Assembly: GCF_910592395.1 (NCBI RefSeq)
Contig: NC_088309.1
Coordinates: 15,628,599 to 15,692,598 of the forward strand
DNA: 64,000 bases
Direction of reading: 5' to 3'
Source: Lineus longissimus
Lineage: Eukaryota > Nemertea > Pilidiophora > Heteronemertea > Lineidae
The notes below the pieces were generated by a model. The model made no database searches. It had not been told where the DNA came from and saw only the letters and a program-made list of their open reading frames with translations. The translations under genes were made by a program, and so were the position numbers. The stretch's first letter is position 1, and the number at the start of each line of letters is the position of its first letter. This document shows positions 12,544-58,895 of the stretch, piece by piece.

Positions 12544-12855
12544 CAATGTACATGGCTTGTATCTCAAAGCACAGCTGCTCGCAATACTACAATGTATCTT
12601 TCCGTCGGTCGTCGCATCACGACGCTCTCCAAAGCGCGGTCTGTGGAAATACAATGAAATGCGTCTCTGCGTAGTGGAGAGTAGTTTAACATCATGAGCC
12701 GAGCCCAGCTTCGAGTTGCGGAGCGTACTTCGGAGCGTAGCTTGGCAACGTTTTGTAGCGTCATTGATTGCGCTGCAGTGAGAAAGTGGTGAACCTCGGA
12801 ACTACGGTCTGTGCAAATGCAACTGATCCTTTGCCCGCTGTGATTGTATCCTTAA

Positions 12856-13212
12856 AGGGGATGTTCGGCTAAGGGACCTGATTACCAAAATTTTTTTAGG
12901 GTATTTATAGTAGGAATTAAAAGATGAAATTTGCATGGATGGTACAAAAGACCGAACTCTAGATGATGAAAAAAGAAAATCTCGGCATATCTGTAATTAA
13001 GGATGGAAAACAATGAGGTTTCTAAAAAGTGGCAAAAAAGGTAGAAAACAGTAAGAAATTAAAAATATTAATATGAATATCTTTAGAATTCATTATAATC
13101 TGTACCCTGACAAAAAATTATTTTGATCCGAGATTGCCTTCATGCAGAAAATCGAGAAAAATCAAGAAAAAACGTCATATTGCTGGGTGTGTGTATTGCA
13201 TGGAATAGCCAT
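12856..13212 (+). repeat. Left terminal inverted repeat (357 bp)
   Basis: Perfect inverse of 22921-23277 as far as a base-by-base reading shows. Starts AGGGGATGTTCGGCTAAGG directly after TTAA. Confidence 0.95.
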
Positions 13213-14500
13213 ATTGAACTTAACTAACAATAGAAAACCACAACACCGTGAGGCATTATTTGCCAGACATGAATCTATTTCAATAAGCTTTATAAATGCT
13301 GTAATTGAGTAGTTCAATTGTTAAGTGACTGTCAACTTTACCAACTGGAAGAAGTTAACCCATTCTGTCCCAGCAAGATAATAATATTAGACATTTGTTA
13401 AAATCATTTGATTTTTACGATCTACATGTAATTTGTAATTGAAGTACAGAGAAATTCCTTAATAAATGGTGATATTTTGATCCTGCTCCCAATCTTTATC
13501 TTCTTTGTAATGAAATAACATACTATAATATAACATGTTAATCTCACCTTTCTTTGCCCCAACAATGAATAATTGGGCATTTTAAACCCATTCTAACCAT
13601 GAGTATGTTTTTGTGTTAAAAGAATGCCTTTTTTTGTCCCATATACAAGGGGTCATAAATATGATGGCCTTGGCCGCTGTGGAAATATTTCTTAAAGCTT
13701 ATAAAGAAGTTGAAATCGTATTTAACCCTGTGACCGCCATACACGATATACTATTTTCCTTTAAAATATTTCCTATGATTTTCCATGAGAATCGGTTGGA
13801 TGTAAAATATATATCAATATTTTTTTAGGAAATATTTTGAACAATCAAGTAATGTATCGTGTATGGTGGGGTCATAATTTTTTTTAGTATTGTTAACCCT
13901 TTACAAATCAGATACCGGGTACCTATAAAGCATTGTAGTCGATGATCGCCGGCCCGAAAGGTCAATTTGACATAAAAATGTAGCCCCAGCTTAAACGGTC
14001 AAATTAATTATTTCGCATAGCATTTTTTGAACGAAATGAATAGGACAGAACCTATTTGTGGAGTTTTTTTTCCTTTACGATAAAAATTGAACAATGTTTC
14101 CTGACAGACACGTTGCCAGTTTTTCCTATCCAATTCCTATACGATGAAAATGTACCGTGTGTGGCAGGCATTAGGCATGATTTTTTAGGTAGAAGACTGT
14201 GTTTAAGGATGAGGTCTGTCCTCAACTGTTCTAAGACCTAACAGAATAAATGCTGTTTCCGGTTACCCGACCCCCCCCTCCAAAAAGAAGTAAACGACCC
14301 AGGTTGAGGCAGACTTCTGTGAAATCTGAGTAGGCCTACCATACATCAATTTCTTCCATCTCCAAGTGTCCTTGACGCTCATCTTCTGTGCGACATGCAC
14401 ATGGTGGATCATATCTTATTCTGTTAGGCCTGATGAATAATATCCAATGCAACAGTTGAACACTTCAATTAAATGTGTTCTTAAGGCTGGGTTTTCATCC
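13213..14500. other. non-coding interior of the TTAA element, left part
   Basis: No ORF with family resemblance. AT-rich, with no clear internal repeats. Confidence 0.5.
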
Positions 14501-14509
14501 CGCATACAT

Positions 14510-14680
14510 ACAGCGACATGGTATACAGGGCCGGATTTACATACATCAACATGGGGCTTACATGCAACACAGTATACAGGGCCGGGTTTACATTCAGCGA
14601 CATGGTATACAGGGCTTGGTTTACATTCGGGGACACGGTATACGGGGCCGGGTGTACGTACATACAGCAACACAGTATTA
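14510..14680 (+). repeat. Minisatellite with GGTATACAGGGCCGG units
   Basis: Imperfect units of roughly 30-45 bp centred on GTATACAGGGCCGGGTTTACAT occur about five times. The overlapping open frames on both strands are a by-product of the repeat. Confidence 0.75.
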
Positions 14681-15326
14681 CAGACATGCTGGTGAACAGT
14701 GGATTCATGGTGATGGTCATGTGAAGTCATTGTTCAGTGGCTTGTCCGTAAACCGTGTAGCTCTATGTAAACCCGGCCAGTTGGGTCTTCAGAACCATGC
14801 AGACTGCGATCACAATAAAATCAGGAAATACTCTATCCGCAGACTTCAAAGGCCAGTTTCGCATTCATAAATTTTCGCATTCATAATTTCCTGGTTGCCC
14901 GTGTGGGGCCTCATATTTAGAGGGACATTAATTTGAAGTGCATTTTGTATTGGATCTAGATATACAATTGTAAAGATTTACTACCGGGATTTACATTGTG
15001 TCATAATTACAGTATTTCAATACAGAAAGCCATACATGCAGATGCATGTAAATAGTACATAGCTAGTTCATGTACTATGTACCCATGAACTCATCTGTCA
15101 TGAGATTGTAAAAAAATGCCAGAATTCAAAATAAATTATTAAAGTCTGCGGATACAATATGTAAACCTAACAATCATTTCGGAATTATTACTTGCCTTTT
15201 AATATGCAATATTTTCTTGAAATCTACAGAAGCATTTATGTTCATTGATAAAGTCACAGTGGGAACATTTGCTGTTGTAAAGATTGCAGCCAATACCAGT
15301 GCTTATCCCCCCCCCCCCCCATCAGG

Positions 15327-15846
15327 GACCATTTGAAAAGTATTTTGAAACTAAAAAGACTTAAGTCAGTTAGTCAGGGGATGGTGTTTTTAATGTTTGA
15401 CATCGCCACTTAGTATTTTTTATTACTTTTGGCTTCACTTGTTTTGAACTTGAAAATCATAAAAGAAACACAACCCAAATCTTCCAAACACTGGCGACGA
15501 ATTCATAAACTGTGTGCAACAGGTAGTGGTATTAAATCTGAGCAATGGCTGTATAAGAGTAGACTACATGGGCATTTATCTTTGGCTTCATCCAAACGAT
15601 GTTGGGAAAAATCAGGCTTGGACCCCAAGGGAAGACATTAGTTTCACAGATACATACCGTAGTCCTTATTCACGAAAGAAAAAGTAAGTTTTTTAATAGC
15701 GATTCACCTTGTATGACCCATGGATAGTTGGTTGACATGGTTGATATTATGTTTTTTAAATAGTGTTTGAGGGAGGGAGGGGGTCAGACCAAACACTAAG
15801 TAACTTAATAGTCATTTTGGCTTCAAAATACTTTTGAGATGGTCCG
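15327..15846. mobile_element. Putative ~520-bp MITE nested in the TTAA element
   Basis: Inverted ends of about 45 bp: GGACCATTTGAAAAGTATTT at the left against its imperfect inverse near 15823-15846. The interior is non-coding. No target duplication is clear. Confidence 0.5.
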
Positions 15847-16029
15847 TAAGCTCAACTTCTTACCACGCACTCAGATTCATTTCTGATAGTTAATTTGGTG
15901 GTGGATTGAATACAGTTTGTGCATCATTTCCATACAATCTAAAACACAGTGCTATAGAATTACTTAAATACACCTTACCTCAGTTTTCATGAGTGTAGCT
16001 CCTATCCTGGGGAACGAAATCGTTGAACT

Positions 16030-16850
16030 ACCCACTAACACAGAGTATTATCCATTTAAATATTCCTCAGGTTTGTTCTAAAGCTAACACAGAACATTAT
16101 CTATTTGATATTCCCAAAGGTTGTTGTCAAGGTAACAGAGTATTATCCATTTGATATATCCCAACTAGTTGTTGTCAAGGTAACAGAGTATTATCCATTT
16201 GATATATCCCAACTAGTTGTTGTCAAGGTAACAGAGTATTATCCATTTGAAAATCCCAAAGGTTGTTGTCAAGGTACATAGGATTATCCATTCCATATTC
16301 CAACTAGTTGTTGTCAAAGTAACAGAGGATTATCCATTTGATATTTTAACTAGTTGTTGTCAAGGACACAGAGCATTATCCATTTGATATATCCCAACTA
16401 GGTGCGTTGTCAAGGTAACAGAGCATTATACATTCCGTATTCTAACTATTTGTTGGGAAGGTAACAGAGGATTATCCATTCGATATTCCAACTAGTTGTT
16501 TTCAAGGCAACAGAGCATTATCCATTTGATATTCCAACTAGTCATTGTCAAGGTAACAGTGCATTATCCATTCCATATTCAAACTAGTTGTTGTCCAGGC
16601 AACAGAGCATTATCCATTTGATATTTCAACTAGTTGTTGTCAAGCTAAAAGAGGATTATCCATTCAATATTCCAACTGGTTGTTGTCAAGGTAACAGAGG
16701 ATTATCCATTCTATATTCCAACTAGCTGTTGTCAAGGTAACAGAGGATTATCCATTCAATATTCCAACTAGTCGTTGTAAAGGTAACAGAGCATTATCCA
16801 TTTGATATTCCAACTAGTTGTTGGGAGGGTAACACATATTATCTAGTAGC
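16030..16850 (+). repeat. Minisatellite, ~17 units of 46-48 bp
   Basis: The unit contains TTGTTGTCAAGGTAACAGAG followed by ATTATCCATTTGATATTCCAACTAG. Units differ by point changes and 1-3 bp indels and form a contiguous head-to-tail array with no unique spacers. Confidence 0.9.
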
Positions 16851-16953
16851 ATGTTCTAACTGTGTTGGCAACACAACACAGCTGTTTCTATCCTTAGCCA
16901 AGTCACTTCACCTCGTCATCTGCTCCCCCATTTGATAAGCTCAATGACCAAGT

Positions 16954-17290
16954 GAACAATATTAGTACTGTCCTTCAAATGTCTCTCTTCAACTCTTTCT
17001 CTTCTCGGGTAATCTCGTCAACTGGATGATACCAGCAATTGCCATTTCACGACAAACTCTTTCCCGCTGGCCGCTCGATGACTCAAGTGAACAATACATA
17101 TTACGATTGTCCTTCAACTCTTTTTCTTCTCCGGTAATCTCGTCAACTTGTTGATACCAGCAATCGCCATTTCACGACTAACTCGTTCATGACACAGGTG
17201 AACAATACATATTACGATTGTCCTTCAACTCTTTCCCTTCTCGGGTAATCTCGTCAACTGGTTGATACCGGCGTTTGCCATTTCATGACA
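16954..17290 (+). repeat. Three ~110-135-bp tandem units
   Basis: Blocks with GAACAATACATATTACGATT, TCGGGTAATCTCGTCAACTG and GCCATTTCACGAC recur three times just beyond the 3' end of the transposase-USP gene. Confidence 0.75.
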
Positions 17291-17458
17291 TCCATGCTTT
17301 AACTGTTTCTCTTCACGGGGAAGTCACTTCATCTCTGAGCATTTACGTATTTACAAAATGTTAGCCTATTGTCCTGAGACCAGAGTTGTTCTAGGCTAAA
17401 TTGTTTGAAACATTTCAAAGTATGTACAAATTTAAGCTTGGTTCTAATGCTGCCTATT

Positions 17459-19723
17459 CTAGCGAAAGAATATCGCATTTATTGTAAGTAGATTGCCCTG
17501 GGTCTCCCAGGGTGAAACTTTAACTGGCCGCTGGCTATCATCTAGCTTCCACCAATCCTGTCTCGTGTCTTTTAGGAAACATAACCAGTGACCGATGTCA
17601 CAGGACTTTCCTGAATGGCATAGCACTGCCATTGCTGTTTGGTTAGTGAAAACTTCTGAAGTTGGAGCAGAGATACTAGTAGTACACTTTGTGTTGGATA
17701 ACAGATCGAGGCGTCTGTTTAGTTCTATAATTGACACCTGTCCTTGCCTGCATACTTGTAATCCGATGCCACTTTGAGCGCATAATCTATTTCTAACTGG
17801 TGTCTCACATATCAGTGGAACTGGTGCTGCCTCTTCAAAATAATGTTCATACATATGTTGCAGCGAAGCACGATTTCCTTGTGGAACATTAAGTCGGATG
17901 CTGAAATTATCTGCACCGACCATTTTCTGTGACACATGCCCGGAAGGACACACCAGTTCTGCAGGCCAAGAGGTGAGGAAACCCTCGTTTATGTGCAGTT
18001 TCTGCAGAAGTTCCATTAGAAATTCTCCGGCGTCATTATACAGTGGGATTCTGAATCCTGCTCCTTGCATTGTTGCATTGACTGCACGGATTAGAGGAAT
18101 GAGCGAGAACTCCTCACCCCCAATTCTCTGGCAGGTGTTCATAAAAATATTATCAAGTGCACTTGTTCCTCGAATGTTGTCATGTAAGCCCACATGCTTT
18201 AAACATTGACTAACAGCAATGCTGTAGCATATGTTACCGTCATTTGTTAGGCCAAGAAATCCAGAAGTAGATGCAGCTGAGGAAGTACCAGGTGACACTG
18301 TTGGTATCCTGGTTGTGATTGGTGGTGATTGGGTCTGTGCACTGCAAGATCGACTGGCTGAGGAAGTACCAGGTGACACTGTTGGTATCCTGGTTGTGAT
18401 TGGTGGTGATTGGGTCTGTGCACTGCAAGATCGACTGGCTGAGGAAGTACCAGGTGACACTGTTGGTATCCTGGTTGTGATTGGTGGTGATTGGGTCTGT
18501 GCACTGCAAGATCGACTGTCTGCTACTGAAGTGCTCGCCCCAAGTTGCACTGTGGACTGATGTTGACTATTTGCAGAATTTACGCTCACTTGTCTACAAA
18601 TCTGTGGCCCAGCATAACTTGGCTGTAGTGAGAGAGGCAACTTCGGATCACTCATGTGACATAGTCTGATCACTGGCCTGTGTGGTAGATTTCCACATAT
18701 TATGATCAGTAAGGCTAGTACATGGGCGTCAGATACAAGGATGCGTGATCCTAGATCGCTTCCAGCTGCCGAGCTGCAATTCCAGCCCACAAGTTTCATT
18801 AGAGGTCCTGTGAAACCCAGGTAATTGTTTGGAACATCAGCGAAGACCAACAGTGGGCGTTTGAGATTTGTAGTGTTACGGTTTGATCGATTTGCTGATG
18901 GCATCTTTGCTGTAATGATTTTAATTCCACCAGAGACTGGCCATTGGAAATAGCGCTGTTCATCCCATCCCTGGGGTTCATTTGCCAGTGTTCTGTAGTA
19001 AACAACAGTTGTAGAAGGAGGCTCGCGCATTGCATCCCAGAGGTCACTGATGTCTTCAAAACTGTCAAGAATCGGAGGGATGTCTAGCTCCAGCTGCCGC
19101 AGGTGTGTGATATAGGACAGAGCTCTTTTGAACAGGAATGGACCCAATGGCAATTCATAAAAGCTATCCCGTTCCTGCGCATCGACTGTGGGGAGATTCA
19201 GCTGATTTCTGAGAGTCCCAGTTCCACTCATTGTTATCGTACTCCAGCCGCTGGAAGCAGCATTTGACCTCGGAATGTCAGTGATATTTACTGGCCACTG
19301 AATGTCAAGATCGTGCAAGAAACTTGTTTGATTCAGCCGAAGTTTCACCAATTGCGCTAGTCGTATCTGTTCCTGGTTGCTGACGAATTTCAAGCTGAAT
19401 TTCCTATGGAATTGGTTGTACACGTTCACACTGGCTAGCCATATTAAAGACAAGCGAGGGCTGTTCGCATAAGCCAAGGGAATGTGATACTTCTGGCAAA
19501 ATGATTCTCCAAGGGGTAGCAGAAACTGATATGGCACTGTGGTAAAGATCTTCTCCTGCCTCATGGCCCCATGAAATTGCTCAACACCTGCACGCAGCTT
19601 TCCAACAATGGCTCGACTATTCTTTGTCAGAATGGGATCCCCAGGACAGTCCACGAATTGAATGTTATTATTTCGTACTTGCAGGATTTGTTCATCTCCA
19701 TCACTGGGCCATATTACAAAGCA
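17459..19723 (-). CDS. Transposase C-terminus fused to ubiquitin-specific protease (USP/C19) domain
   Basis: This 754-codon open frame continues the transposase frame after a TGA at 19724-19726. Near its start KLRAGVEQFHG supplies the likely third catalytic residue (E) of the DDE domain. A ~330-residue region without a recognised fold follows, then three copies of a 27-residue Ser/Thr/Pro-rich repeat. The last 250 residues match a USP: Cys box GLTNDGNICYS (Cys codon 18227-18229), a DAGEFLMELLQKLH block, a C-x-SGH segment, and the His box IGHWLCFLKD (His codon 17588-17590) with a following W-KLDD. All expected USP catalytic positions are present, so an active deubiquitinase is plausible. It ends at a stop next to non-coding repeats inside the element, so this is not a flanking host gene. 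Confidence 0.8.
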   Translation of the reverse strand, partial: CFVIWPSDGDEQILQVRNNNIQFVDCPGDPILTKNSRAIVGKLRAGVEQFHGAMRQEKIFTTVPYQFLLPLGESFCQKYHIPLAYANSPRLSLIWLASVNVYNQFHRKFSLKFVSNQEQIRLAQLVKLRLNQTSFLHDLDIQWPVNITDIPRSNAASSGWSTITMSGTGTLRNQLNLPTVDAQERDSFYELPLGPFLFKRALSYITHLRQLELDIPPILDSFEDISDLWDAMREPPSTTVVYYRTLANEPQGWDEQRYFQWPVSGGIKIITAKMPSANRSNRNTTNLKRPLLVFADVPNNYLGFTGPLMKLVGWNCSSAAGSDLGSRILVSDAHVLALLIIICGNLPHRPVIRLCHMSDPKLPLSLQPSYAGPQICRQVSVNSANSQHQSTVQLGASTSVADSRSCSAQTQSPPITTRIPTVSPGTSSASRSCSAQTQSPPITTRIPTVSPGTSSASRSCSAQTQSPPITTRIPTVSPGTSSAASTSGFLGLTNDGNICYSIAVSQCLKHVGLHDNIRGTSALDNIFMNTCQRIGGEEFSLIPLIRAVNATMQGAGFRIPLYNDAGEFLMELLQKLHINEGFLTSWPAELVCPSGHVSQKMVGADNFSIRLNVPQGNRASLQHMYEHYFEEAAPVPLICETPVRNRLCAQSGIGLQVCRQGQVSIIELNRRLDLLSNTKCTTSISAPTSEVFTNQTAMAVLCHSGKSCDIGHWLCFLKDTRQDWWKLDDSQRPVKVSPWETQGNLLTINAIFFR
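18280..18522 (-). repeat. Three 81-bp tandem copies inside the USP-fusion ORF
   Basis: Near-identical 81-bp units start at 18280, 18361 and 18442 and encode 27 residues each (starting RSCSAQTQSPPITT). They form a Ser/Thr/Pro-rich linker before the USP domain. Because 81 is a multiple of 3, the frame is kept. Confidence 0.95.
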
Positions 19724-20793
19724 TCAATTTGTCTTACACCACTCTTGGAAGTTCTGAATGTTGTTCAGGTTGACATTATGAGGAACGAAGATGTACCCTT
19801 TATCTACAGCAAGGACAACAAAGTAACGATCTGTGCCTTTCAAGAGGGACGTCATCCCATGATCCCCTGTATTCTGGTGTGACTCACGGGCAATTTCGAG
19901 GCCTGCCAATTGGCTGTCACCACATCTTGGAGTTGCTGCTGCAGCTATTGGCGTTGTCAACAAAACATGCCCTGTTGTGCTGACTAATGAGGTAAATGTG
20001 ACACAATGACCACCCTTCTTTGGGTAATAAGAAGCTTTCTGATTATCGTAATCCATGGAATTTGGCACCCGCACCTTCTTGGAATCAAGGGAAATTCCTA
20101 CTGGGCTACGGTGTCGTCCTGTTGGGTCATCCATATACGATAGCAACTCCCTGTGGTATGGCGACTCTGCTTGTTGAACACTTTGAAAAAACTTATCTTT
20201 TTCGGTTGTTGTGGTTGATGGAGACCAGAAGAGATTTGGTATATGACTATTTTGGAAAAGATGATAGGTCAATTGTGACCAGAAGATGTCGTGCGCAGTT
20301 GATGCAGCGACTTGGAAGGTGGCCGAAATGTCAATGAAGTCAACGTTTGACCTCATTCTATACCTATACAGCAACACACGTGCAGAAATATCTAATCCCG
20401 AGTCTCTGTGAACGGTATCTCTCTGTAGCCATACAAGATTCCAGAAATCTCTGACCCTTAGTCCTGAACAGTTCTGAAGTTGGCCTTCCTGCAACATCCA
20501 TGGATGACGGAACGGTTTTTACTTTCCCGTCTTTCTTTTGGCCACTGATGCCTCTCATACACTTCATCATAATGACTATCAGTTTGTTTATATGTATATC
20601 CACTCTGTCCATTTTGTCCTGCACTGCTCTGAACATTCGATTCAGAACACCCCTGAATATCATCTTCTTCATCTGAAAAATCCAGATAACCGTATTCCTC
20701 ATCGCTTGAGTCTCCATGTGAACTTGTACTATCCTCAGCTGAAATATCCTGGCTATGCTGTGATGCTCCAAGATGTCCGGGTTGTGAGTGTGG
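19724..20793 (-). CDS. DDE transposase with acidic N-terminal segment (one frameshift, ends at TGA)
   Basis: An exon begins at 20793 after an acceptor (AACAAGATACAG). It first encodes an acidic Ser-rich segment (DSSDEEYGYLDFSDEEDD), then changes frame near 20460-20530. From 20497 the frame reads a helix-turn-helix-like region and a DDE core: GISLDSKKVR (D138), QKASYYPKK, CGDSQ (D194) and LAVDKGYIF (D232), the order expected of DDE_Tnp_4-like enzymes. A TGA at 19724-19726 interrupts the frame before the catalytic Glu, which lies 74 codons after D232 in the same frame. The TGA could be a CpG-type CGA-to-TGA change. The reason for the frameshift is unknown: mutation, assembly error or an unusual intron. 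Confidence 0.75.
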
Positions 20794-21103
20794 CTGTATC
20801 TTGTTTAAAATAGAAAGAAGCATACTACAGGGTGGGTAAATAAAAGGTTAATACATCCAGGATAATTATTTTTGGCTAAATAATTGTATAATGAGTTATT
20901 GTCTTCAAACAATATCAGTTCGGCAAAAGTGAATATTCAACAGCGCTGTCAAATATGACAACCCTTGGTCTCATAGTAATGGAAATGCTATAGACAGGGT
21001 TGTCATATTCAACAACTCTAGGGGTAAATATTTCCAATCATTATTGGGGGGACGTGTGAAGGATTAGTGATTTCTCTTTCTGTTCATGGTAGACAGTGCT
21101 GAA

Positions 21104-21261
21104 TTTACTAAAAATCTGCCCTGGGACATTTGCTCTTTCCCTTGCATTCCCGCCAAAATCAGATGTTTACCCTCCTTCAATACAAGAAATTGGCCAAGAA
21201 ATCGACCTTATTTCCAAACGCAGTGAAAGGTTCAAATGTCACAGGGCAGATTTTTAGTAAA
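21104..21261. repeat. Small foldback with 29-bp arms
   Basis: TTTACTAAAAATCTGCCCTG at 21104 pairs with its inverse ending at 21261. It lies in the intron between the zinc-finger exon and the transposase exon. Confidence 0.75.
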
Positions 21262-21637
21262 AATGGCCAATTAACGCTATTTGACCTCTGTGACCTTGTA
21301 AAGTAGGTCAAATGAAATAGAAATGGTATTTCTCATTCAAATTGCAAATCACTTCGTCTATATCCAAAAGCCAAAAGTACATTTTTCACAAAGCGCCACC
21401 TATCCGGCTGAGCATGTCAAAAATGACTGAAACCGCCAAAAGGCACAATGCAACATCATCCCAGGTGGTGAGAACCATGATGACGCGAACCTGGTCCTAT
21501 AGGCTATGGGTTTAAGTATCTACCCAGTAAACATCACACAATGTCGGAGTGAAGACTAGGATGAGTATTTGTAATAGATCATGCAGTAAAACTGCTGTGG
21601 CAAAGTAACCTAGTTTTCGCAAAACCTGCATACTCAC

Positions 21638-22120
21638 CGAGCTTTGCACAATTGTTACCATATTTCCACTAATACTAGACGAATATTGACATCCTCCTGG
21701 CGGTAGAGTCCATGGCGGACATATAGTATAATCAGTATTAGAGGAAATGTCATGAATTTTCAGGTATGCATTATAAGTTATGGTGCCATTGTTTTTGAGA
21801 ATTGTGTGCAACTCCTGATGGGGATTGATAGCTGCTAGCTCCTTTAGCTTCAGATAAGCTGTTGCATTTATTCTGCCGGGTATAAACACAAATGGCCACA
21901 CTCCTGGTACGGCAAGTTTGCCGGCCTGACAAATAATAAGTCGCTCACAAATTGAATTGGCTCCCAAAGCATCCTTAACACTATTTACGTTGCTTGGTCT
22001 TTCAAGAGTTTGAAAGGTAGCTGCATCCACTGCACTCACTCTAAATGGACACGAATGTGTCAACAAATGACTCCATCGGGTGAATACATGGGTACAGTGT
22101 TCACATTGGTTTTCAGGCAT
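21638..22120 (-). CDS. First coding exon of the TTAA-element protein (short zinc finger)
   Basis: ATG at 22118-22120 opens MPENQCEHCTHVFTRW. The segment has C-x2-C and H-x3-H pairs at shorter spacing than a classical C2H2 finger, so it may be a divergent zinc knuckle. The 161 codons end in phase 0 at a strong donor (CTCG then GTGAGT at 21632-21637). The acceptor at 20793 is also phase 0, so splicing joins this exon to the acidic segment and transposase. The open frame extends to 22198 upstream of this ATG, so an earlier start is possible. The rest of the exon has no recognised domain. Confidence 0.65.
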
Positions 22121-22920
22121 CTTTGAAGAACAACTGTGCACTACTGAAATACACAGGTAAAATTCCCCAACACTATTACAAGGACTATTACATAACAAGA
22201 AATGAACCCACTGCCTAAAAACGGCATTTAGTCATGGACAGCCAATGTCATTAGAGTGGAAAACAACTATAGAAATTGCTTATGAACCATGACCAACACA
22301 AAAGGGGTGGGTGGGGGGAGGTATTGTGATGACATCATGATCAAGTTGAGGGATTTATATAATTTGGTTTTGCCACTGGGCATCATGTTCAGAGTATGGC
22401 TTGATGATGTAATTACTTTGATCTTGTCACACACATAAAAATCACATTGTAGATGGCCTATTCTATACTCAATAATAAGACAATACCACTAAAAAAGCAA
22501 GAACACCAACATAAAAAAGAACCAAATATTGAGTACTGATAACTGATGTACATTTTGACATGTTTAAAAAAAACACAAGTTAATAATATAAGTACCAATT
22601 GCCTGCACATAAAGTCGATATGAATGGGAAACACCCTTGCCAATCCAATTCTTGCACAAACGCTATATGCATGTAGTTTTTCTTCGCTGAACATACAGTA
22701 TATACTCAAATTGGGGTGAATAAATTCTGACCAGCGCTGGAGACACACATGAGCAAAAAGGGTTAACCGCCTGGTCATCAAGAGGTTATGGAATGCATGC
22801 ATACAGAGCCAAATCAATCTTCAACCAAACTAGTCAATTAATGAAACAGACACAGGGCCACAGGACTGTGTTATCAAAGTTATTACTGGTTCATTTATTC
22901 TTTTGTGCTGGTCATTTTAA

Positions 22921-23277
22921 ATGGCTATTCCATGCAATACACACACCCAGCAATATGACGTTTTTTCTTGATTTTTCTCGATTTTCTGCATGAAGGCAAT
23001 CTCGGATCAAAATAATTTTTTGTCAGGGTACAGATTATAATGAATTCTAAAGATATTCATATTAATATTTTTAATTTCTTACTGTTTTCTACCTTTTTTG
23101 CCACTTTTTAGAAACCTCATTGTTTTCCATCCTTAATTACAGATATGCCGAGATTTTCTTTTTTCATCATCTAGAGTTCGGTCTTTTGTACCATCCATGC
23201 AAATTTCATCTTTTAATTCCTACTATAAATACCCTAAAAAAATTTTGGTAATCAGGTCCCTTAGCCGAACATCCCCT
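22921..23277 (-). repeat. Right terminal inverted repeat (357 bp)
   Basis: Inverse of 12856-13212, followed directly by TTAA at 23278-23281. Confidence 0.95.
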
Positions 23278-23689
23278 TTAAAGAAATTTTCTAACTCTTG
23301 AAATAACATCCAATAATTGATCGGCCTACTTCAATTACAAACAAACAAGGAAATGCCCAGTGATTGGAGAAATTCACAGCATTGTCACGAAATATTCCTC
23401 ATAAGGCATTGGTTGCATCTCTAGATAAATTGCCACTTTACTGCACTGATATGTCTCACAGTATGGAGAGTATGGCTTGATAAGATGACGTGCCTGTTTG
23501 CATAAAATGCAGCCTGGTCTATTTTGTGGTCGCCTCTCACAGAGACAAAATTGAACAGGAATCACCATACATGTATGTTAACACAAATAACATCAAAATC
23601 CTTACAATCACATTAACACATACAAAAACTCACTTTGTGAAGATTCTCCTTTTAATATGGAAAGGTGCAGAGTGAAATTTGAAGTGTAC

Positions 23690-35377: not shown

Positions 35378-37855
35378 TTATAATAAAGGTACAGCTACCG
35401 CAATCATTTTATGATCAGACCAAGTGGATTCTATTGTAGAAGTATGAAGATTGACCCTATTAGAAAATGCCATATCAATTAGTGAATTATAATCAGTAGT
35501 AATTTCGTTCACTAATTGTTGGCATCCTATTATATTGGAAATCATCTGCAAATGGTTATCATTTTTGCTATTCCAAATATCAACATTAAAGTCACCAACA
35601 ACAAGTAGAGGTTTAGTGAGGTCTATTTCTAATGCAATTTTACGAAGTTTTGAACATAGTTCTGTAAATGAACATGAAGGTGACTTGGACAGACAGATGA
35701 TTTGAAGGAAAAGTGTGGGTTTTGACAGCGAAATGCAGGAGGCTTCAAAGTTAGCAGTTGATACATGTTGAACAGTGCAGAACTCGGCAAGAGATGACAA
35801 TACATACATAGCTAAACCATGTGGTCTCCTTGCAGTACTATGACTAGTGTTTGTGCTATTAAGTTGATCATTTCTGAATAGTCTATAATTTGGGATGTCA
35901 AAGGTATCATTGTTGTCAGTGGCAATGAGGCGCGATTCTGCTACAAGAAGTATGTCTCCACTCATCATATGGTGATCAGCAAGTATATCATTCAAATGAA
36001 GATTCAAAGATCTTGTATTGTGAAAGATTACTTTCAGGTAGTTTTGTCCAAGTGATGAAGGAAGAGTATAATTCAGTTTTATGCACGATTTGTTTCGAAG
36101 CCGTTCCATTTCTTTAGTAACAATTGGATCAGTACCAATTTTGTCATCCTGCAAATTCAAAATGTACAAACCACTTATACTAGTGACTCTACTTAATGCA
36201 ACATAATGGACATGGTTTATTTTTCTCCTTGAACTCATGTCGACAACTACTTCTGAAAGAGAGTATCTTTGTGCTTTCCAGACTGTTTTGATGCACCAAT
36301 TGTAAATGGAAATTGAGTTTTAGTAACAGGTGTGTAACTTTTTCCACGATAAAATGTGCGCTTCACAGCAAAAATTGGAGTCCATTCTTTAGGAGTATCA
36401 GTTGAGAAAAATGGTTTGTATGTGGATCTGATAGATTTTCCTACATCTGGATCTTGGAATAACACCCACAGAATTGCAGGTTTGTCGAAATCATTCATGA
36501 ATTGTATTCTTTTCATTTCACACATTGTTCCATTTGCCAGCCCATCAGTAATATTTACATTGCATGTGACCATGTAAGGTAAGCCAATTGCATCTGATAG
36601 TTTATTTACTAAACCAGCGGTTACAGAAGGATCATCAGGTATTCGTTCCACAATAGTTTGCTTAACTTCATCACTGAAGTCTGCTAGCACTGTATCTACA
36701 GCTTTGACAATTACTTTATCTGTTAATGCATGATCAAAGACAAATTGGTTGTGCTTTGCAACTTCATGTTTTGTGCAATACAAGTGTAATGCATTTTGTG
36801 GATAATCAGGATCATTTTTGGAAACTACTCTCGATTTTAATATAGTTAGGTCATCTTCGGTGTTTTTGCCTTCTCTTAATCGATTGAGCAGTTGTGCATA
36901 ATTCATGTCATCTTTTGGCGCATAATTTCAGTGAGTTCAAACATTTCAAAATGACAGTCATTTTCAATGCCTTCATCATCACTACATGTATGATCGGATT
37001 CAGAATGTTCATTCTGATTTTCATTGTTGAAATCAAAGTGTTGACCACTCCATAAATTTGTTGCCAAGTCTTTATAATCAACAATTTCACCTTTGACCTG
37101 ATCTGAAAAAATCCACTTATCCATCACATGATGAAGTTGGTACAAATCTCCAAAAGCAATGATGTGAACTCCACCAAATGGATCTTTATTATCTTTCAAT
37201 TCTTGTAATCTAAGAGACAGGAATGGGAACATTTTTCGGCCAACCATACTTATTTCATCAATGATCAGAACAGATAAATGTCTGTAGTAGGTAATATATT
37301 TTTCACTTAAATTTTGTGGAAGTTTTGTGTATTTTAACCCTTGGTTTGGTAATATATGAAAAGCAGTGTGCAGTGTTGTACCATGAATATTGTATGCAGC
37401 TGTCCCAGTTGGAGCTGTTAAAAGAATGCGACAGTCTTCTGGATCATCACCAGCATCAGTACATAAGCACCGCAATAAACTTTGGTGAATAGCTTTGATA
37501 GTGACACTCTTGCCTACACCAGCACCACCTGTCAAAAACAAATGTAGATTTTTTGATGATGTTTTAATGTGCTTTAAAACATATTTGAAAATGGTACGCT
37601 GTTTTTCATTTAAATTTCTGACCAGCTGGTGAAAGTCTTCGTCATGGATTCTACCTGGTAGTTTATCGAAATTATGAGATTCCTTTTGAGGATGTAGTCC
37701 GATATCCACTCCAATATCATACGTTCTCATTTGTTCACTGTTAGCAGGATTAAAGAAAGCCATATCCTCAGAATCATGAATGGTTTGACTGGCATCTTCA
37801 GCTTCAGTGTGCATGTTATTTGGTGCAATATCACCATATGATTCAGTGTCATGCT
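35378..37855 (-). pseudogene. Helentron helicase-endonuclease fragment (copy 2), two frameshifts
   Basis: Minus strand. 37855-36903 encodes the N-terminal helicase half with Walker A GGAGVGKS, PTGTAAYNIH, Walker B LIIDEISMVG and GDLYQL. 36906-36290 and 36290-35378 encode the rest, ending in an AP-endonuclease-like domain (IFHNTRSLNL, AESRL, VVGDFNVDI, WSDHK). Compared with the copy at 57-64 kb, an A5 run reduced to A4 near 36915 and a second 1-nt loss near 36290 break the frame. Rep and all upstream parts are missing; the sequence stops at an LTR remnant near 37855. About 70% protein similarity to copy 1 by eye. Confidence 0.85.
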
Positions 37856-41990: not shown

Positions 41991-43157
41991 GGGTAGTTGT
42001 AAAACAAGAAACACAGAAACGAAACAGAAACACAGAAACGCAGAAACGAAACGCAGAAACGAAAATCAAACGGGTTTTCATAAAAGTTGGAATCAAGCGG
42101 CACGCCGATACTTTCCTTGCCCAATCCGTTGTTATTGTCGTTTAAAAGTAAAATCTGAGGTTGGTGGGTTGCGGCCAGCCGGAATGCAATAGAGTTGTTG
42201 AGGGGATACATGGAGCAACTTGGGGGGGGGAGGGGAGGGGGCGGCACGATATGGGTGAAGTCTTTTGAGGTGGTGGTGTAGTACTTCGGTAGGTTCGATT
42301 CGATTCCTACAGCATGTTATTTTAAATGAAGGTGCAGTGCAACATCTTGCCTTGTGGTGTTCAATTTACATGAAGTACCAGGATCATCCTACAAATCCCG
42401 TCTGATGCAGCACTAAATACAAGGTACGGTACCAGTACATGGGTGAATCATTTCGACGTTATGTGAGACGTGAGAGACCAATTTTGGCGACTAGAATAGA
42501 GTAAAGTGGGGGGGGGGGGCGGGCACTAGACTTGGACTTGGAGTAACTCAATCTTGCCTGCCCAGCTGCTGCCTTTAAATAGTCCCTTTAAATATCTGTT
42601 TATGTTAATGAGGTTGCAGTAGGGAAGTTCAGCCCAGTGTCGTGCACAGGCCATGGAATGTACAAAAGAACAGGACTCGCTATTCGAAGGGCTATTTTCT
42701 ATTTACGCCGTGTAGTACATACATGTAGTGTATTGGGGAGGTCAGTGTAAATAGAAAATAGTCCTTCGAATAGAGAGTCATGTTCTATTGTACATTCCTA
42801 GCAGGCCTATGGTCGTGTTCTGGTCATTGGTCATGCCGACTTACTGGCGGCTCATATCGATCATAAAGTCCTCATGCCCTACAGATGGTGGATCGGCAAG
42901 GTCAGGGGCACGATCAAGGCCGGATGCTGCCAATCTGCGCACACGTTGATGAGGCTAAAAGGGGTATTGGGAAATGAGCATTCCTCCTTCCATTCCGACT
43001 GAATACCAGTTTTAGTTACACCCGCGTTCGCGGCCACAACCATGGCAACAAGATGGAGTCTGTAGACCAGAATTCGCCACAAGACTGGTTTCTGCGTTTC
43101 GTTTCTGTGTTTCTGTGTTTCTGTTTCGTTTCTGTGTTTCTTGTTTTACAACTACCC
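41991..43157. mobile_element. 1167-bp MULE-like MITE with 9-bp target duplication
   Basis: Ends start GGGTAGTTGTAAAACAAG and continue into GAAACACAGAAACG tandem runs, in inverted orientation, giving TIRs of about 65 bp. GTCAGCCAG flanks both sides (41982-41990 and 43158-43166). It is inserted in the C-terminal end of the Gypsy integrase frame. No transposase is encoded. Confidence 0.9.
42655..42798. repeat. Foldback hairpin nested in the MULE-like MITE
   Basis: Two 52-bp arms (42655-42706 and 42747-42798) with GGAATGTACA and TATTCGAAGG blocks are inverted, with about 5 mismatches and a 40-bp loop. Confidence 0.85.
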
Positions 43158-45067
43158 GTCAGCCAGACATGCCATAGGCTAGATTGCGCTAATCTCTGAT
43201 CACGCCTGATTACCCTAATAACAACATCATCGGGCAATTCAAAGAGAAACTCCAACCTCACGGCCTCAATGCATTTGCCTTTGCAACCTGAGGTTCGCTT
43301 TTTGACCTTCGTTAACGGGATCTGGCTGTAATGGACCTCAGTGTTCTCATTGGACCTCAAAGCCTGTCGCAATTTCTGCAAATTGCTGATGTTCTCATGA
43401 TCCGTAGCTTTCAAGAATGCTGGTTTTAACCGGTTGAAGTTAAAAACATCCTTCAAAATTCTACCTTCCAAGTCTGACAAGATGTAGTGGGTGCGATCAA
43501 GAACCTGATGAATAACGAAAGGACCTACCCAAGACGCAGTGAATTTCTTTGCGTTTGCAGTCAAGGAGGAGCTGGATGATTCATGCAGATAAACCAGTTG
43601 ACCTTGTTCATAAACCTGACACTTATGAAGCTTTTGAGCAACCTTCTGATTCTGAGTTTGTTGTTGATGCTCTTGCAGCTGTAACATTAGCTTAGAGACA
43701 TTCTGAAATTTGTCTTTCAGATGTTCAATATACTCAGATTGCGAGTGTGACAATCCCAAGACTGGTTTGAAATTTAGTCCGGTAATGTCTGTGGGTTCAC
43801 GCAAGAAGACACGGTAGAATGGGCAATGACCACCGAGGTAACTGGAGCAGAATGAGTTGAACGAATACTGAGCAACACTGTAATAGCGAACCCAATCTTG
43901 TCCATATTGGCTGAGATTCACCTTGATCAAATTGGCAATTGACTGAATTTGACGCTCAACATGAAGAGAACCATGATTCCCTACTGAAATGATTTTCTGA
44001 GAGATGTTAAGAGTTTCACACAACAAAGTAATGATCTTGCCGGTCAATGATGTCGCTGCATCACAGATAATGACTTCGGGAATACCAAAATCACACAGAA
44101 CACGCTGAATGAGAACTTCAGCTATTGTCGCTGCCTCTAAATTCTTTAGGGGCACACAGACAATAAAACGAGTTGCTGCACAACTTACTACCATCAAGTG
44201 ACGGTAACCTGATCTGGACGGAACCATTGTTATGAAATCAAGTGAGATTGTCTCAAATGGACAATATCTCGCAGGAATCCGCTCATGGTATGGTCTGTCC
44301 TTGTCGACTTTCCCTTTGAATTGCTGACAATTGCTACATGATTGAATATATGAAACAATCCTCTGGTAAGCTTACATTGACGGAAAGTAATATGACTTGC
44401 GCAGTGTCAGAAATGTGCGTACACAACCTTGGTGATTGGCGGTAACGGAGTCATGATATCGGCTGATGAGTGGATCAATAAACTTTTCAGGAACAGCGAG
44501 TTGAAAACAGTACTTACCATCACTATTTGCTGGGAAGAATAACCGAAACAAGATATTGTTGCACAACAAATACTGTTCAGACCTAAGCATGATGGACCTA
44601 GCAGATTTCTTGTCGGCTGGGAGAATGTTGTGAGCAAGATAGTCGAAGATAGGCTTGAAGAATGGTGACGTCTGTTGGGCAATGCGAAACTGTTGACCGT
44701 CAAATGGCAAATTGTAATCCCGAATGACCTTACGCTTGATGACTTTTAGCACTTTGTTCAGTTCAGCTTGATTAGGTATGTGGCTTGCAGTCATGCGATC
44801 AATCTGTGGTACTAATGGCTCAGGTGTTAGCAAAAATTCCGGTGGACACTGTTTGATGTGTTCTTCCTGAACTTGATCATTCTTGTTTATCACTCTGTCA
44901 ACCAATCTTGGCTCTGGTACTGTAATATCAGCTGGCTGGGCCTGTTGTTGGACTCCTGGTGGTGGCATCATTAGTCTCGGGGTCCTGGCAGGACTGGCTT
45001 GGCGTCTGGGTGGCCGGGGTGCAGGAACAGGTCTTGGTTGAGGGACGGGCCTGGGAGGCGGTGGCAC
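43158..45067 (-). pseudogene. Gypsy integrase
   Basis: A Pro-rich linker opens the frame, followed by the HHCC zinc-binding domain (RYHDSVTANHQGC and later C-x2-C). The core domain has D in LDFITM, D in IICDAATSLTG and E in SLHVERQIQ, then a C-terminal chromodomain-less tail (GPFVIHQVLDRTHYIL). One TAA at 44372-44374 breaks the frame between the zinc domain and the core. The tail is cut by the MULE-like MITE at 43157; its original stop would be at 41933. The catalytic triad is still readable. Confidence 0.8.
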
Positions 45068-45875
45068 AGGATGATCTACCCTTTGTTGCTGGACTTGGAT
45101 TCACAGCTGGACGTCCGTCTTTGAACAATGGTGCAACGGGTATTGCATTTTGTCGTGCAAAGGACCTGGTTACGGGTCTTGTAGGAGCACTTACAGTAGG
45201 ATAAGCACAATCTAGGCAACCAAAATGACAACTGTCTGAACTACAGAATTCAAGATGCTGAGACCTGGGCACATGACATTCTTGGGCTGGGAATGCAATG
45301 GGCATGATGCGATCAAATTGATCATCATCATCCAGTGGTGCTCTTGACAAGAAATCACTGACAACTAGATCTGTACCTTTCTTATAAGCCAACTCAAATG
45401 AATAATGAGACAATCTCTCAAGAAGCTTTTGTAAGCGCATTGTACATGGCTCACTCTTACTCTTCACAATCTGAACGAGACTACTGTGATCAACATATGC
45501 TAAGAAGGAATGTGACTGCAAAAGATAACGAAAAGCTGTAATATTGATGTACAGGCCGAATAACTCGAGTTCACTGACTGAATATGCTGCTGCGGCTGGA
45601 GGAAGACGCTTGGAATAGTACGCAATGATACGTTCTTTGCCTTGAACCCTTTATGCCAAATATGAGCCTGTGGCTATGCGCGATGTGTCTGAATACAGAA
45701 CAAACTGACCTTCTGGTGCTGGGGCACACAGAACTGGGGGTGAGGTAAGAAGTGTAACAGAAATGTAATTGAAATGTAATTGGGAGAGCCATGATAAGGA
45801 CAAATACCAGTTTAAGATTGAGATTTTTCCGAGAGGGGCAGACTGTGAAGCGCTTTTAAGATCAATTACTGACAA
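44928..45875 (-). pseudogene. Gypsy RNase H region
   Basis: GQFVLYSDTSRIATGSYL and YYSKRLPPAAAAYSVSELEL are the RNase H-like block after RT. LAYVDHSSLVQIV and LQKLLERLSHYSFELAYKKG continue it, with DFLSRAP at the end. A TAA at 45651-45653 interrupts the frame. A 1-nt frame change in the Pro-rich region near 45065 separates it from the integrase frame. Confidence 0.75.
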
Positions 45876-46334
45876 AACTTTACAGTTTGAACGACCTAAA
45901 CGAGCTGGAACACTTTATAGGCTGACAAAATTTTGATTGACAGTTTTGCAACGACTATTCAAATACCTGAAATCACTGACTATCCTCTTGTCAGTTGTAC
46001 CCTTTTTGCCAATCAGCATGACCGGGCTGCTGTAGGCAGAACAGCCTTTCTTCAAGATACCAAGATTTACCAGCTTATTGAACTCGTTGTCAATTTGCTT
46101 GCGATTTTTCTCTGGGATAGGATACGGGCGGACGAAAAATGGACTGTCATCCTTCAATTGGATGTCCACTTCAAAATTGGGGCACGTGCCAATTTCGCTG
46201 TATAGGCTGAATGCCTCTTTGTTCCGTAGAAGTAGCTCATACAAGTGCTGCTTCTCATCCGCACTAAGAGTGCTACCTTGCAGGGAGATTTGCTGCTCAA
46301 TTATATCCTGGGGTGACAACTTGGAGATGGGATC
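45830..46334 (-). pseudogene. Gypsy reverse transcriptase with catalytic core deleted
   Basis: The N-terminal RT fingers are clear: VRPYPIPEKNRKQIDNEF, LGILKKGCSAYSSPVMLIGK and RIVSDFRYLNSR. After a stop at 45915-45917, VLSVIDLKSA (RT motif with the first catalytic Asp) is present. The next recognisable sequence is already near RNase H. The YxDD box and the rest of the palm are missing, implying an internal deletion of roughly 0.5 kb. This copy could not encode an active RT. Confidence 0.8.
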
Positions 46335-46337
46335 ATC

Positions 46338-47058
46338 AATAGCCAGGATTAGCAGCCGCCCGACTCCGACTCCGAGTACGAGTACGAGTCAGAGTCGGAT
46401 CCGCGCGCGAATGTTCAGTTTGATCGATTAGCAACGTCACGACTCCCGGTCAGAGTTGATCTCAGTTCCAGGTGTTTTACGTTAGATGGCGCTGCAAAAC
46501 GTAAACATAGCAGACGACGGAAACAATCAGCTGATCGGCAGTGATTTTCCTTTGATCGTGAATTAAACCAGTTATAGAGAAATGGCAGATAGGCCTACAT
46601 CTTGGACTTGGGAGCAAAAAATAACCCAAGGGCAATTGCATGCTTCCTCACTTGTAATAACCATTGATAACTACTACCATGCACATGATGCATGGCATGT
46701 ACACATGATGTAAACGCATCGCATGTGCATCGATGTGCAAAAAAATCGCGAGAATGCCACCCAACAAAGATGCCCATACAGAGCACCCTTTTTCCACCAG
46801 AACTACATTGCTGGGCATTGACATATCCTTGAAAGCATTTACATTTAAAAACGATCAGGAAATACTCCGAATCTACGATGATAACAGAGAAATTTGCACT
46901 GGGAGCGCACTTACGAATAGAGGACGTCCAACTCGGAGTTTACGAGCGAGTACGAGTGACCACTTGGGAAACCCCCGCACTGTTGATGACGTAAAGCGCA
47001 AAAAGGGAATCACCTCGTACTCGGAGTCGGAGTCGGGCGTCTGCTAATCCTGTCTATT
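46338..47058. mobile_element. 721-bp TIR element inserted in Gypsy pol
   Basis: TIRs of about 45 bp (AATAGCCAGGATTAGCAG, then GCCCGACTCCGACTCCGAG) differ at two positions. ATC flanks both ends (46335-46337 and 47059-47061). Removing the element and one ATC joins the protease-side and RT-side pol sequence in frame. A 3-bp TSD fits a Harbinger-type or similar MITE. The short ORF at 46733-47047 is not a convincing gene. Confidence 0.9.
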
Positions 47059-47061
47059 ATC

Positions 47062-47826
47062 CAGGTGAGGGTACCTAAGCAGATTTTTATAATGAAGGTC
47101 AGATACGCACTGTTCGCGTGTGACCCTATTATTCAAAGAGCCACAAGGGACTAAGTGGGTGGCATGAATATGATCTGACAAATCAGTAAACGCAACAGGA
47201 CGATTATCACGGAAAGTGACATTTTTCTTGAAATTGTTCTTAACCCGAAGAATGGCTGCACTTTTCCTGAGCTTTACCAACATGTATGATGGACAATATT
47301 TGCTGAACTGCTCGGTAGGCTGCAGCAAAACCTCAGTATGTTTGAGCAACTTAGGAACTTTGCCTTTGACTACAATACTCCTAGTCTGACCTGGTCTCAA
47401 AGTGACTGTCTGTACAGGTGTGAACTGGATACGCCTGGGTCTGACAGTTAAGGTACTGGTCGAAAAGTCACGTGTACCATTCAATTCCGACAGGGTCCGA
47501 GCACCCAAAAGCAAATCTGGTCCAGTAAGGTTGTCTTCAATAACAGCATGAATGCTGAGCTTATGACCTTGTATAAGAAGCTCAATGTTTATAGCCTTTG
47601 TGGTTTGCAAAAATTCACCATTTCCTATGCAAAAATGTATCGGATCGATGTCAATCTGGGGCAACTTGGAAAGATGAGAAGACTTGTTGACAGATGAATG
47701 TGCGTGTGGCACCTGAATCAACAACTATTACTAATCCCTGCCTATCTGGGAGGTAACTTTTTACATAATTTTGTGTAGTGAGTTTAAGATCAATTGGCTC
47801 TGAGCCCGACTCATGTGTTGCCACGA
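47062..47826 (-). pseudogene. Gypsy protease region, frameshifted
   Basis: VIVVDSGATRTFI holds the aspartic protease active-site triad DSG and lies in the frame open from about 47826 to 47655. The continuation (DPIHFCIGNGEF, LLIQGHKLSIHAVI, DLLLGARTL) is in the next frame from about 47690, so one indel separates them. The rest is the spacer to RT. Confidence 0.75.
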
Positions 47827-47859
47827 TTTACTTCTGACAATGGGTGGACTGTATACTAG

Positions 47860-48716
47860 TTAAACGAGCCAATGAAATATGATAAACACTAACCTGTCTC
47901 TTTCTAGCTTTCTGTTTTTCCTGCTTCACGTAGAGTCTCAACAATTTCGATGTCGGGCCTCGTCCCTGTATCCTAGCATTCCCTATGCCGAGCCGTATCC
48001 AGGCCAGTTTATCCAGTTTAATATGGCATATATATATATATATAGAGCTCCTCAGAATATCTCGAATCACGACCTTGTATTCGCAAGTACACAAGGATTC
48101 AATAAATCGGAAAGTCGAAGTGCAAAACGATTGATACACAGCGACGCGAGTTAAGATAAAGGTATATCAAGTTCGAAAAGGTAAACTATGCGTCTACCAT
48201 GCGGCCACAATAAAATAAATCAATAAAAGGATTCGCATTCGAATCATCTGGGTCGGTCGGCGGGGACGCACAGTCACAACGGACGCAAATAAACAGACGC
48301 AAATATTTACAAAGTTAGTATAGACGCCAAACAGTTACCAAACTACGATCATATTAATGACGAAATGTTTTCTGGCGCACGCTGTATAGTGTATAGACCA
48401 ACGCACGAGGTGCACTCTCGCGTATACTAATTCGCGGTACCTGACTCGCAGCGGCCGGATGAGTCCACAAAGCGATCCAAAAACTGCGGTTTCAGCTCTA
48501 ATCCACTTCAGCTACAGAATCTTTAGTCACAACACATATTATATGCCTTTGATATCCAAAACTGTCTAAAATTAAACAAGCTTCCCGAACATCCGTTGTT
48601 ACACAAGATACCAATTCCGCGCTCGCCGTTCTTCATGTCGCTGCGGTCTTCGGCGGTGGATGCGCCTGAACATCATGGGATGAAGAGTGTACAGGAGTAC
48701 TATTAACATTGTTACA
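47860..48716 (-). mobile_element. 857-bp LTR-like insertion between gag and pol
   Basis: A non-coding block starts TGTAACAATGTTAAT on the minus strand and is flanked by CTAGT on both sides (47855-47859 and 48717-48721), a 5-bp target-duplication length used by LTR elements. Its 3' end reads GTTTAA and not CA, so solo-LTR status is tentative. It contains (TA)n at about 48028-48044. Confidence 0.5.
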
Positions 48717-48757
48717 ACTAGGGGGCGACACAATATGGCCTGTTGACCGTCCACTAT

Positions 48758-49846
48758 CTAAAAATGTGACTGGTAACTAGTATAGTTGGTGTGTTGTTGT
48801 CCTTGATTGTTGTTAGCAGAAGGGTCCCAGTAGTTTTGCTGGTGATATGGCTGCTGCTCAGACGGGCTATATGTAGGCTGGTGCTGATAGTTGTAGCTTG
48901 GTTGACGTGGTCGTTGAAATATGGTATTCGCTGCTCGGGCTGCTGGTGGGATGAAGTCGGAGGGGAGCTCTCCTCGGGCGACTTGAACTTGGAATCGGTG
49001 GCAATAACGCCAGAAATGACCAGTGCGGCCGCAAAAATGACAGGGGTGGCTTTCACGGGATCGTGGACGGCTTGGGGATTGAGACCGTTTTCTCTGCCTG
49101 TGGGTGTAGTCATCGCTTCGAGACGGGCGGCTGGATAGTGGATATGGCGATGAGGGTCTTGGGCTGCATGGTGCATCTGTGTCTTGGCTTTGAAAAGCTG
49201 CCTGGGCCTGCGGTGGCGAAGCCTTATCCATTTTCAGGTCTTCCAACTTGGACAGGATCGCATGGAGGACGTGGTCCGTGGCACTGGCGGTGTGAACTTC
49301 GTCCGCTGCTGTGGAGAAATGTACGCGCTGTGGCGTGATGTCAAGGAACATCTGCGCACATTCGGCGATGGCGTTTGAATCATTGTCAGCATCAATTGCC
49401 ATGATAACAGCTTTCTGACAATCAGGAGGCAAGGTTTGTAGAAGTTTGTTCTTAATCTGGTTGTCGTCATAGCCAATGCGGAGTGCAGCCAGCCTAATTT
49501 TACTTAGGTGCTGTTGCCCGGTCTGGTTTGCGGTGTAAGTAATGGATTCAAACTGCTGTACATTGGCAAAGTGGGAGTGCGTAGGGGAAAACCTACTCAG
49601 AAATTGTGCCTTGAGGTCAGGCAAGTCCTCAAATTCTTGGTCTTCGGCCCAAAGGCGAGCATGTTTAGAGAGGCGACACTTGAGAAGGCGCACAACATTG
49701 TTCAGAGCATCGTCATCACCCGGTTCGTGCAGGTTATGCGCCTGAAGATAGTCATGGAATGACAGCCACCAAGATGTGGCGAGTTCATGGCTTAATACTT
49801 CACCATCAAAGTATGGAGGCAATAAATCAGTGGGGCGCAACGCCAT
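48758..49846 (-). CDS. Gypsy gag-like protein
   Basis: Intact 362-residue frame starting MALRPTDLLPPYFDG. The N-terminal ~200 residues are a retrotransposon gag capsid-like region (WWLSFHDYL, LWAEDQEF, LKAQFLSRF, LLQTLPPDCQ). A Ser/Arg/Pro-rich stretch and one CCHC zinc knuckle (CHFCGRTGHFWRYC) follow, then a Gln/Tyr/Asn-rich tail. Gag packages the element RNA in cytoplasmic particles (family knowledge). It is the only complete coding unit left in this Gypsy copy. Confidence 0.85.
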   Translation of the reverse strand: MALRPTDLLPPYFDGEVLSHELATSWWLSFHDYLQAHNLHEPGDDDALNNVVRLLKCRLSKHARLWAEDQEFEDLPDLKAQFLSRFSPTHSHFANVQQFESITYTANQTGQQHLSKIRLAALRIGYDDNQIKNKLLQTLPPDCQKAVIMAIDADNDSNAIAECAQMFLDITPQRVHFSTAADEVHTASATDHVLHAILSKLEDLKMDKASPPQAQAAFQSQDTDAPCSPRPSSPYPLSSRPSRSDDYTHRQRKRSQSPSRPRSRESHPCHFCGRTGHFWRYCHRFQVQVARGELPSDFIPPAARAANTIFQRPRQPSYNYQHQPTYSPSEQQPYHQQNYWDPSANNNQGQQHTNYTSYQSHF

Positions 49847-58890: not shown

Positions 58891-58895
58891 ATTTT

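Follow-up and report, generated by a model that had tools for sequence, protein, structure and literature searches.

A Spy-like DNA transposon of Lineus longissimus whose transposase carries a C-terminal ubiquitin-specific protease domain

In a stretch of 64,000 nucleotides from the nemertean Lineus longissimus (contig NC_088309.1, positions 15,628,599 to 15,692,598; this whole stretch is hereafter the window, and coordinates without a contig name count from its first letter), the minus strand encodes the motifs of a DDE transposase and, further along, a ubiquitin-specific protease (USP; peptidase C19) domain. The locus raises the question of whether the protease belongs to a transposon or to the host and, if it travels with the element, what it would do there. 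The explanation that we favour, with considerable confidence, is that this is a copy of a Spy-like cut-and-paste transposon that inserts between AAA and TTT without duplicating its target, and whose transposase bears, on a probably flexible linker, a C-terminal USP that would function as an active deubiquitinase.

The whole transposon occupies 12857–23276 (10,420 bp), flanked by AAA (12854–12856) and TTT (23277–23279), and is bounded by identical terminal inverted repeats (TIRs) whose termini recur in further copies: the left TIR (12857–13212, plus strand, 356 bp) begins GGGGATGTTCGG, and the right TIR (22921–23276, minus strand, 356 bp) is 100% complementary to it. The repeat search of the window reported the pair as identical 357-bp inverted repeats at 12856–13212 and 22921–23277. 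The coding order, all on the minus strand, is acidic N-terminus, helix-turn-helix (HTH), DDE core, conserved C-terminus, Ser/Thr/Pro-rich linker and USP. In the transposase gene, an acidic N-terminal stretch (20458–20823) is followed by the HTH with the first part of the DDE core (19724–20497), in which the Asp codons lie at 20084–20086 and 19802–19804; the remainder of the core, with its Glu codon at 19580–19582 in GVEQFHG, and the conserved C-terminal transposase region lie at 18614–19723. Between transposase and USP, the linker (18276–18522) consists of three 81-bp repeats that are 99–100% alike and encode a 27-residue unit rich in Ser, Thr and Pro; most other copies have one unit fewer and L027 two fewer, whereas L009 matches the window in length. 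The USP domain itself spans 17462–18262, with the Cys, His and Asp codons of the triad, placed by alignment, at 18227–18229, 17588–17590 and 17540–17542, respectively.

A preliminary description of the locus had proposed that the transposase is fused in frame to the USP within a mobile unit. The DDE motifs LDSKKVR, AVDKGYIF and GVEQFHG do lie upstream of, and share a reading frame with, the Cys box NDGNICY and the His box GHWLCF, and the open reading frame (ORF) at 17459–19654 (minus strand) matches Pfam UCH (PF00443) with an expect value of 5.8e-8 and 33.1 bits, above the cut-off of 23.9. In the window copy, however, the shared frame is not a single open one: an in-frame TGA (19724–19726) parts the first two Asp motifs from GVEQFHG and the USP, and a frameshift near 20.51 kb, ahead of the HTH, leaves the acidic segment out of frame. 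With these two lesions, the window copy can no longer encode the full protein, and no intact product is expected from it. An intron spanning the TGA, considered by eye, is ruled out, as intact copies read straight through this position. The proposal that the USP sits inside a mobile unit was borne out: the identical TIRs enclose the gene, and other copies and lineages keep the USP.

These copies were sought in the window's own genome (G000; 391 Mb in 30 contigs) with the USP-side ORF (731 residues; 90 matches, 61 of 70 candidates scored) and with the HTH–DDE part (52 matches), the loci being grouped by hand; only the best candidates were scored, and copy numbers are thus lower bounds. The family to which the window element belongs, family A, has at least 10 further near-identical copies (11 in all) in unrelated flanks. 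Beyond the window, both termini were found in eight of them, and within the fetched stretch L011 and L019 have one terminus only. The main aligned stretches share 97.9–100% identity with the window element; there are also matches of 77–85%, which we read as tandem repeats aligned out of register. The element seems to have moved recently in this genome. All 1102 codons are open in 6 of the 11 copies, a single in-frame stop interrupts three others (L019, L025 and L027), and L023 and the window copy are more heavily damaged; every one of the 11 carries the USP. An uninterrupted frame encoding both DDE transposase and USP is present at no fewer than 17 loci (six of family A, eight of B with 1095 residues, two of C with 1078 and one of D with 959). 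The hand-grouped set comprises 40 transposase loci, of which 36 also have USP sequence; the preliminary description had suggested checking whether the two always co-occur in other copies. Among the exceptions, C14:9115024 (L038) retains ~20 residues from near the USP end, the remnant of a deletion, C4:15526033 (L048) is a decayed fragment and C9:6922915 offers a match of only 63 residues; C12:7300677 is ambiguous, as another partial copy with a USP starts 0.8 kb further on. Loci matching on the C-terminal side only (C4:17228460, C7:14720497, C15:5017659 and C20:9947461) stand outside the 40. A single protein comprises both transposase and USP, and the fusion spreads as one unit.

The association also reaches across divergent lineages. 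Five of these (A–E, represented by L011, L040, L041, L042 and L044) have pairwise identities of 39–54% in the USP and 49–66% in the transposase. Synonymous sites are saturated between them (proportion of synonymous differences, pS, 0.77–0.86), and the corresponding nonsynonymous proportion (pN) is 0.28–0.40 for the USP and 0.22–0.35 for the transposase. The ratio of nonsynonymous to synonymous substitution rates (dN/dS) is given only for pairs with dS between 0.02 and 1.6; in the eight less saturated USP pairs (dS 1.40–1.59) it ranges from 0.16 to 0.48, being lowest for L030 against L041 and L045. The transposase tree and the USP tree both recover (B,C) and (D,E) with strong support, and pairwise identity in one domain correlates with that in the other at 0.89 (ten pairs, which are not independent); both observations fit a single union, inherited together.

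Searches of 5.8 billion database proteins, with candidates capped at ~8000 in two of them and 975 scored in the other, gave at least three relatives among the candidates scored. P0001 (955 residues) has HTH–DDE and USP in one frame, with identities of 54% in the transposase and 46% in the USP; P0002 (822 residues) stops before the USP. Over the region encoded at 18614–19723, the identity is 54% to P0001 and 52% to P0002. The third, P0005 (839 residues), is 27% identical and begins within the DDE core; its tail contains paired cysteines as well as a Cys box (GLQNDGNVC) and, in a two-sequence comparison, can be aligned with the USP (218 columns, 23% identity, expect value 1e-4). Pfam UCH did not match the tail, and no His box is visible by eye before the protein ends; its relation to the USP is suggestive only. 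Among viral and prokaryote contigs, no relative was confirmed. Judged from these comparisons, the fusion is old and constrained rather than a chance neighbourhood, and the fact that distant transposons keep both parts together suggests that the protease helps the element.

The type of transposon is indicated by its insertion signature. At 19 of the 20 family A ends, AAA immediately precedes a terminal GGGG, the other end reading TAA before GGGG. Among the nine family A copies with both ends, no target-site duplication is repeated: with repeat lengths of 2–9 and four choices of boundary, no combination occurred in more than one of the nine, the single-copy exceptions being TTAA in the window copy and one 2-mer. 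Family B (L029, L031 and L040), whose element is ~6.6 kb in L029, has AAA ahead of GGGC(C/A)TGTTC at four of five ends, and inspection of L029 and L031 by eye likewise shows no duplication. Spy elements are described as lacking a target-site duplication and inserting between AAA and TTT (PMC4482050, PMC11304231), and intact ones as measuring 1165–5910 bp with one ORF, which is a reported range and not a strict criterion (PMC11304231). The present element resembles them in its duplication-free AAA/TTT insertion, in a faint resemblance to HTH_Tnp_4 and DDE_Tnp_4, and in its long TIR, which falls inside the reported 5–691 bp; it differs in its length (10.4 kb against a maximum of 5.9 kb), its C-terminal USP, an extra zinc-finger coding region and a transposase similarity below cut-off. 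Each of the two Pfam profiles matches three of four lineages at expect values up to 1 (best 0.00033 and 0.0041, respectively), and HTH_Tnp_4 reached 0.0014, below its cut-off, in the HTH region of the window copy. A transposase profile found nothing among PDB sequences at expect values up to 5, the NCBIfam search returned nothing and PHROGs gave a single match, at 0.11. By its insertion signature rather than by a tree, the element may be placed as Spy-like in the PHIS superfamily, which unites PIF/Harbinger, ISL2EU and Spy and to whose profiles its resemblance is weak; we use Spy-like rather than Spy because of that weakness, the larger size and the second coding region.

In the preliminary description, the element had instead been filed as a TTAA-type transposon of the Kolobok kind with a captured USP. 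The window copy does look the part: it has TTAA at both ends, and its AGGGG termini match the AGGRR termini reported for Xenopus T2 Kolobok-type elements (PMC6004289). Across the family, however, TTAA lies ahead of AGGGG at only five of the 20 ends, and just one of the nine two-ended copies, the window copy itself, has it on both sides; AAA precedes GGGG at 19 of the 20 ends, no duplication recurs, and the coding regions scanned gave no Pfam THAP match at expect values up to 1. We consider a Kolobok identity highly improbable, and that filing was given up. Nor do we find it credible, except as the slimmest of chances, that the USP is a host gene lying next to the transposon or recently captured by it. 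Transposons do capture host genes, and USP sequences are numerous in this genome (at least 94 matching stretches, transposon copies included), but all 11 family A copies carry the USP, and the divergent lineages and P0001 share it. A mere host-gene neighbour is ruled out by the other copies, which lie in different flanks, and a recent local capture is unlikely because no host-like USP locus was seen among the 90 matches of the 731-residue transposon ORF, from the 61 of 70 candidates scored. The USP of our Spy-like element is more likely the product of an ancient capture of a host gene; by profile, USP36, USP14 and USP12/46 appear as its nearest solved relatives, and they are too distant to name the source.

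As to what the domain is, PF00443 matches all five lineages at expect values up to 1 (2.3e-9 for the first, 1.5e-13 for the best), copies of A, B and D exceed the UCH cut-off in the genome scan, and a USP profile run against PDB sequences finds USP36, USP14, USP12, USP46 and others, with a best expect value of 2.7e-8. The triad positions are those that we take to be catalytic from the general USP pattern. In the alignment, lineages A, B, C, D and E all retain the order Cys, His, Asp/Asn, as do P0001 and L009, another family A copy; the check covered these sequences, the rows for L029 and L045 ending before the His. In P0004, the triad corresponds to C847, H1060 and D1076. We infer that the transposase carries, in tethered form, a catalytically active deubiquitinase. 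The retention of the triad speaks against a non-catalytic module for ubiquitin binding or scaffolding, which we think improbable, even if, by eye, the finger region appears to have a reduced cysteine pattern in comparison with typical USPs. Insects are reported to hold inactive relatives of transposon deubiquitinases (PMC9741609). Another reading has the USP acting on SUMO, ISG15 or NEDD8, or processing the transposase itself, instead of removing ubiquitin: the domain is divergent, the linker long, and ULP-type proteases are described in other transposons (PMC2836005). The profile matches, however, are to ubiquitin USPs, and we hold this alternative to be unlikely.

Several observations weigh against the explanation that we favour. 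With regard to the Spy-like assignment, one of the five family B ends lacks AAA; the 10.4-kb length (~6.6 kb in family B) and the second coding region fall outside the reported Spy range; and all the HTH_Tnp_4 and DDE_Tnp_4 scores obtained are below the Pfam cut-offs; of the profiles named in the preliminary description, UCH scored above its cut-off and DDE_Tnp_4 below. The spacings in the DDE core are 88–96 residues between the two Asp and 73–75 between Asp and Glu. With regard to the USP, its region also has weak matches to Josephin and SidE_DUB (in two of the five lineages each), and two structure models were poor, with predicted local distance difference test (pLDDT) scores of 34 and 39. 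Finally, the window copy is itself broken by the TGA and the frameshift, and near-identical pairs have dN/dS values of 0.09–1.26 for the USP (five pairs) and 0.43–1.26 for the transposase (five pairs), the latter being as expected for copies decaying after insertion.

Other USP sequences were encountered in the same genome. One USP domain, which has paired cysteines, recurs in identical form on two chromosomes, at G000:C9:3982378-3983148 and G000:C4:2611993-2612721 (L050 and L051), within open frames of 1957 and 1882 residues, and has further matches on C1 (83–85%), C5 (71–96%) and C2 (40 residues, 83%); another multi-copy element that bears a USP and is unrelated to the present one could be its source. 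A single contig holds three more USP matches, at G000:C3:11242865, 11412375 and 11417675; their scores are similar, each lies in a frame of 616 residues, and two are ~5 kb apart.

When the transposase sits on DNA, a USP attached to it would work on its surroundings, whether these are the transposase and its partners or, at the break, repair proteins and chromatin that carry ubiquitin. Its most probable effect would be to remove ubiquitin either from the transposase or from proteins, such as chromatin and break-repair factors, that occupy the donor or target DNA; the transposase complex might thereby last longer, or the break be handled in favour of the transposon. We rank such local protection first; between the transposase and the chromatin or repair proteins as its target, the chances appear about even. 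A bolder proposition, against which we would lean slightly, is that the Spy-like lineage depends for transposition on a USP tethered in cis, an eraser at the transposon ends that would serve either the survival of the transposase or the stripping of ubiquitin from chromatin or repair proteins at breaks without target-site duplication, and that P0005 is a far relative, making the union very old.

Deubiquitinases and related proteases are already known in transposons. Ginger1 transposases end in OTU or ULP1 domains (PMC2836005), ULP occurs in Mutator elements, and OTU and VTD occur in Helitrons (PMC9741609, PMC2836005). Ginger1 likewise joins a ubiquitin/SUMO-pathway cysteine protease to the C-terminus of a DDE transposase, but its transposase resembles Gypsy integrases and its protease is OTU or ULP, not USP (PMC2836005). 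The Helitrons (Helentrons) with VTD or OTU also bear a deubiquitinase, proposed to protect transposition proteins from the proteasome; they differ in being rolling-circle elements with no DDE transposase and with other deubiquitinase folds (PMC9741609). A link to repair has been proposed as well (PMC2836005). Closest in composition is the Trichomonas vaginalis protein XP_001314237.1, with a transposase_11 domain and a peptidase C19 in one polypeptide, which is mentioned in PMC2836005 with a citation of Gladyshev and Arkhipova 2009, a paper concerning IS5-like transposons; the comparison rests on that mention of a single protein and does not extend to its element, TIRs or conservation. Titles and the openings of abstracts held no further case of a USP in a DNA transposon, subscription papers and Repbase Reports being outside their scope. 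The novelty suggested in the preliminary description accordingly narrows: a protein combining transposase and C19 peptidase had already been mentioned, and it is the conserved USP lineage of Spy-like elements that is new. The recurrence of unrelated ubiquitin and SUMO proteases (OTU, ULP and VTD) in different transposon groups hints at an influence of ubiquitin control on transposition; the present element, which inserts without duplication, seems to have moved recently and has a conserved USP, adds another case, of the USP class, and a system contained in one protein would let the role of ubiquitin control in transposition be tested directly.

The second coding region (21512–22198, minus strand), whose product begins MPENQCEHC, may be an upstream exon or a second gene of the element; in the Pfam scan its C2H2 zinc finger is weak (expect value 0.019, below cut-off). 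Counting the window's own, nine of the 11 copies in family A match its product at 100% over 228 residues; L023 matches at 98% and L019 gives no match; relatives occur in L041 (lineage C; 3e-27) and L038 (2.5e-24). The Cys-rich N-terminus of P0002 matches the family B loci L029 and L031, and not this region. The non-coding part of the transposon is 0.6–3.4 kb shorter in most family A copies, and all or most of a stretch of 46-bp tandem repeats within it (16040–16860) is missing from several copies. Elsewhere in the window, and by eye with no profile search run, large ORFs at 58800–62309 and 35378–37814 resemble Helitron-type helicases and those at 43016–49846 a Gypsy-type retrotransposon. A pair of 70-bp inverted repeats, 99% complementary and 1 kb apart, lies at 41991–42060 and 43088–43157.

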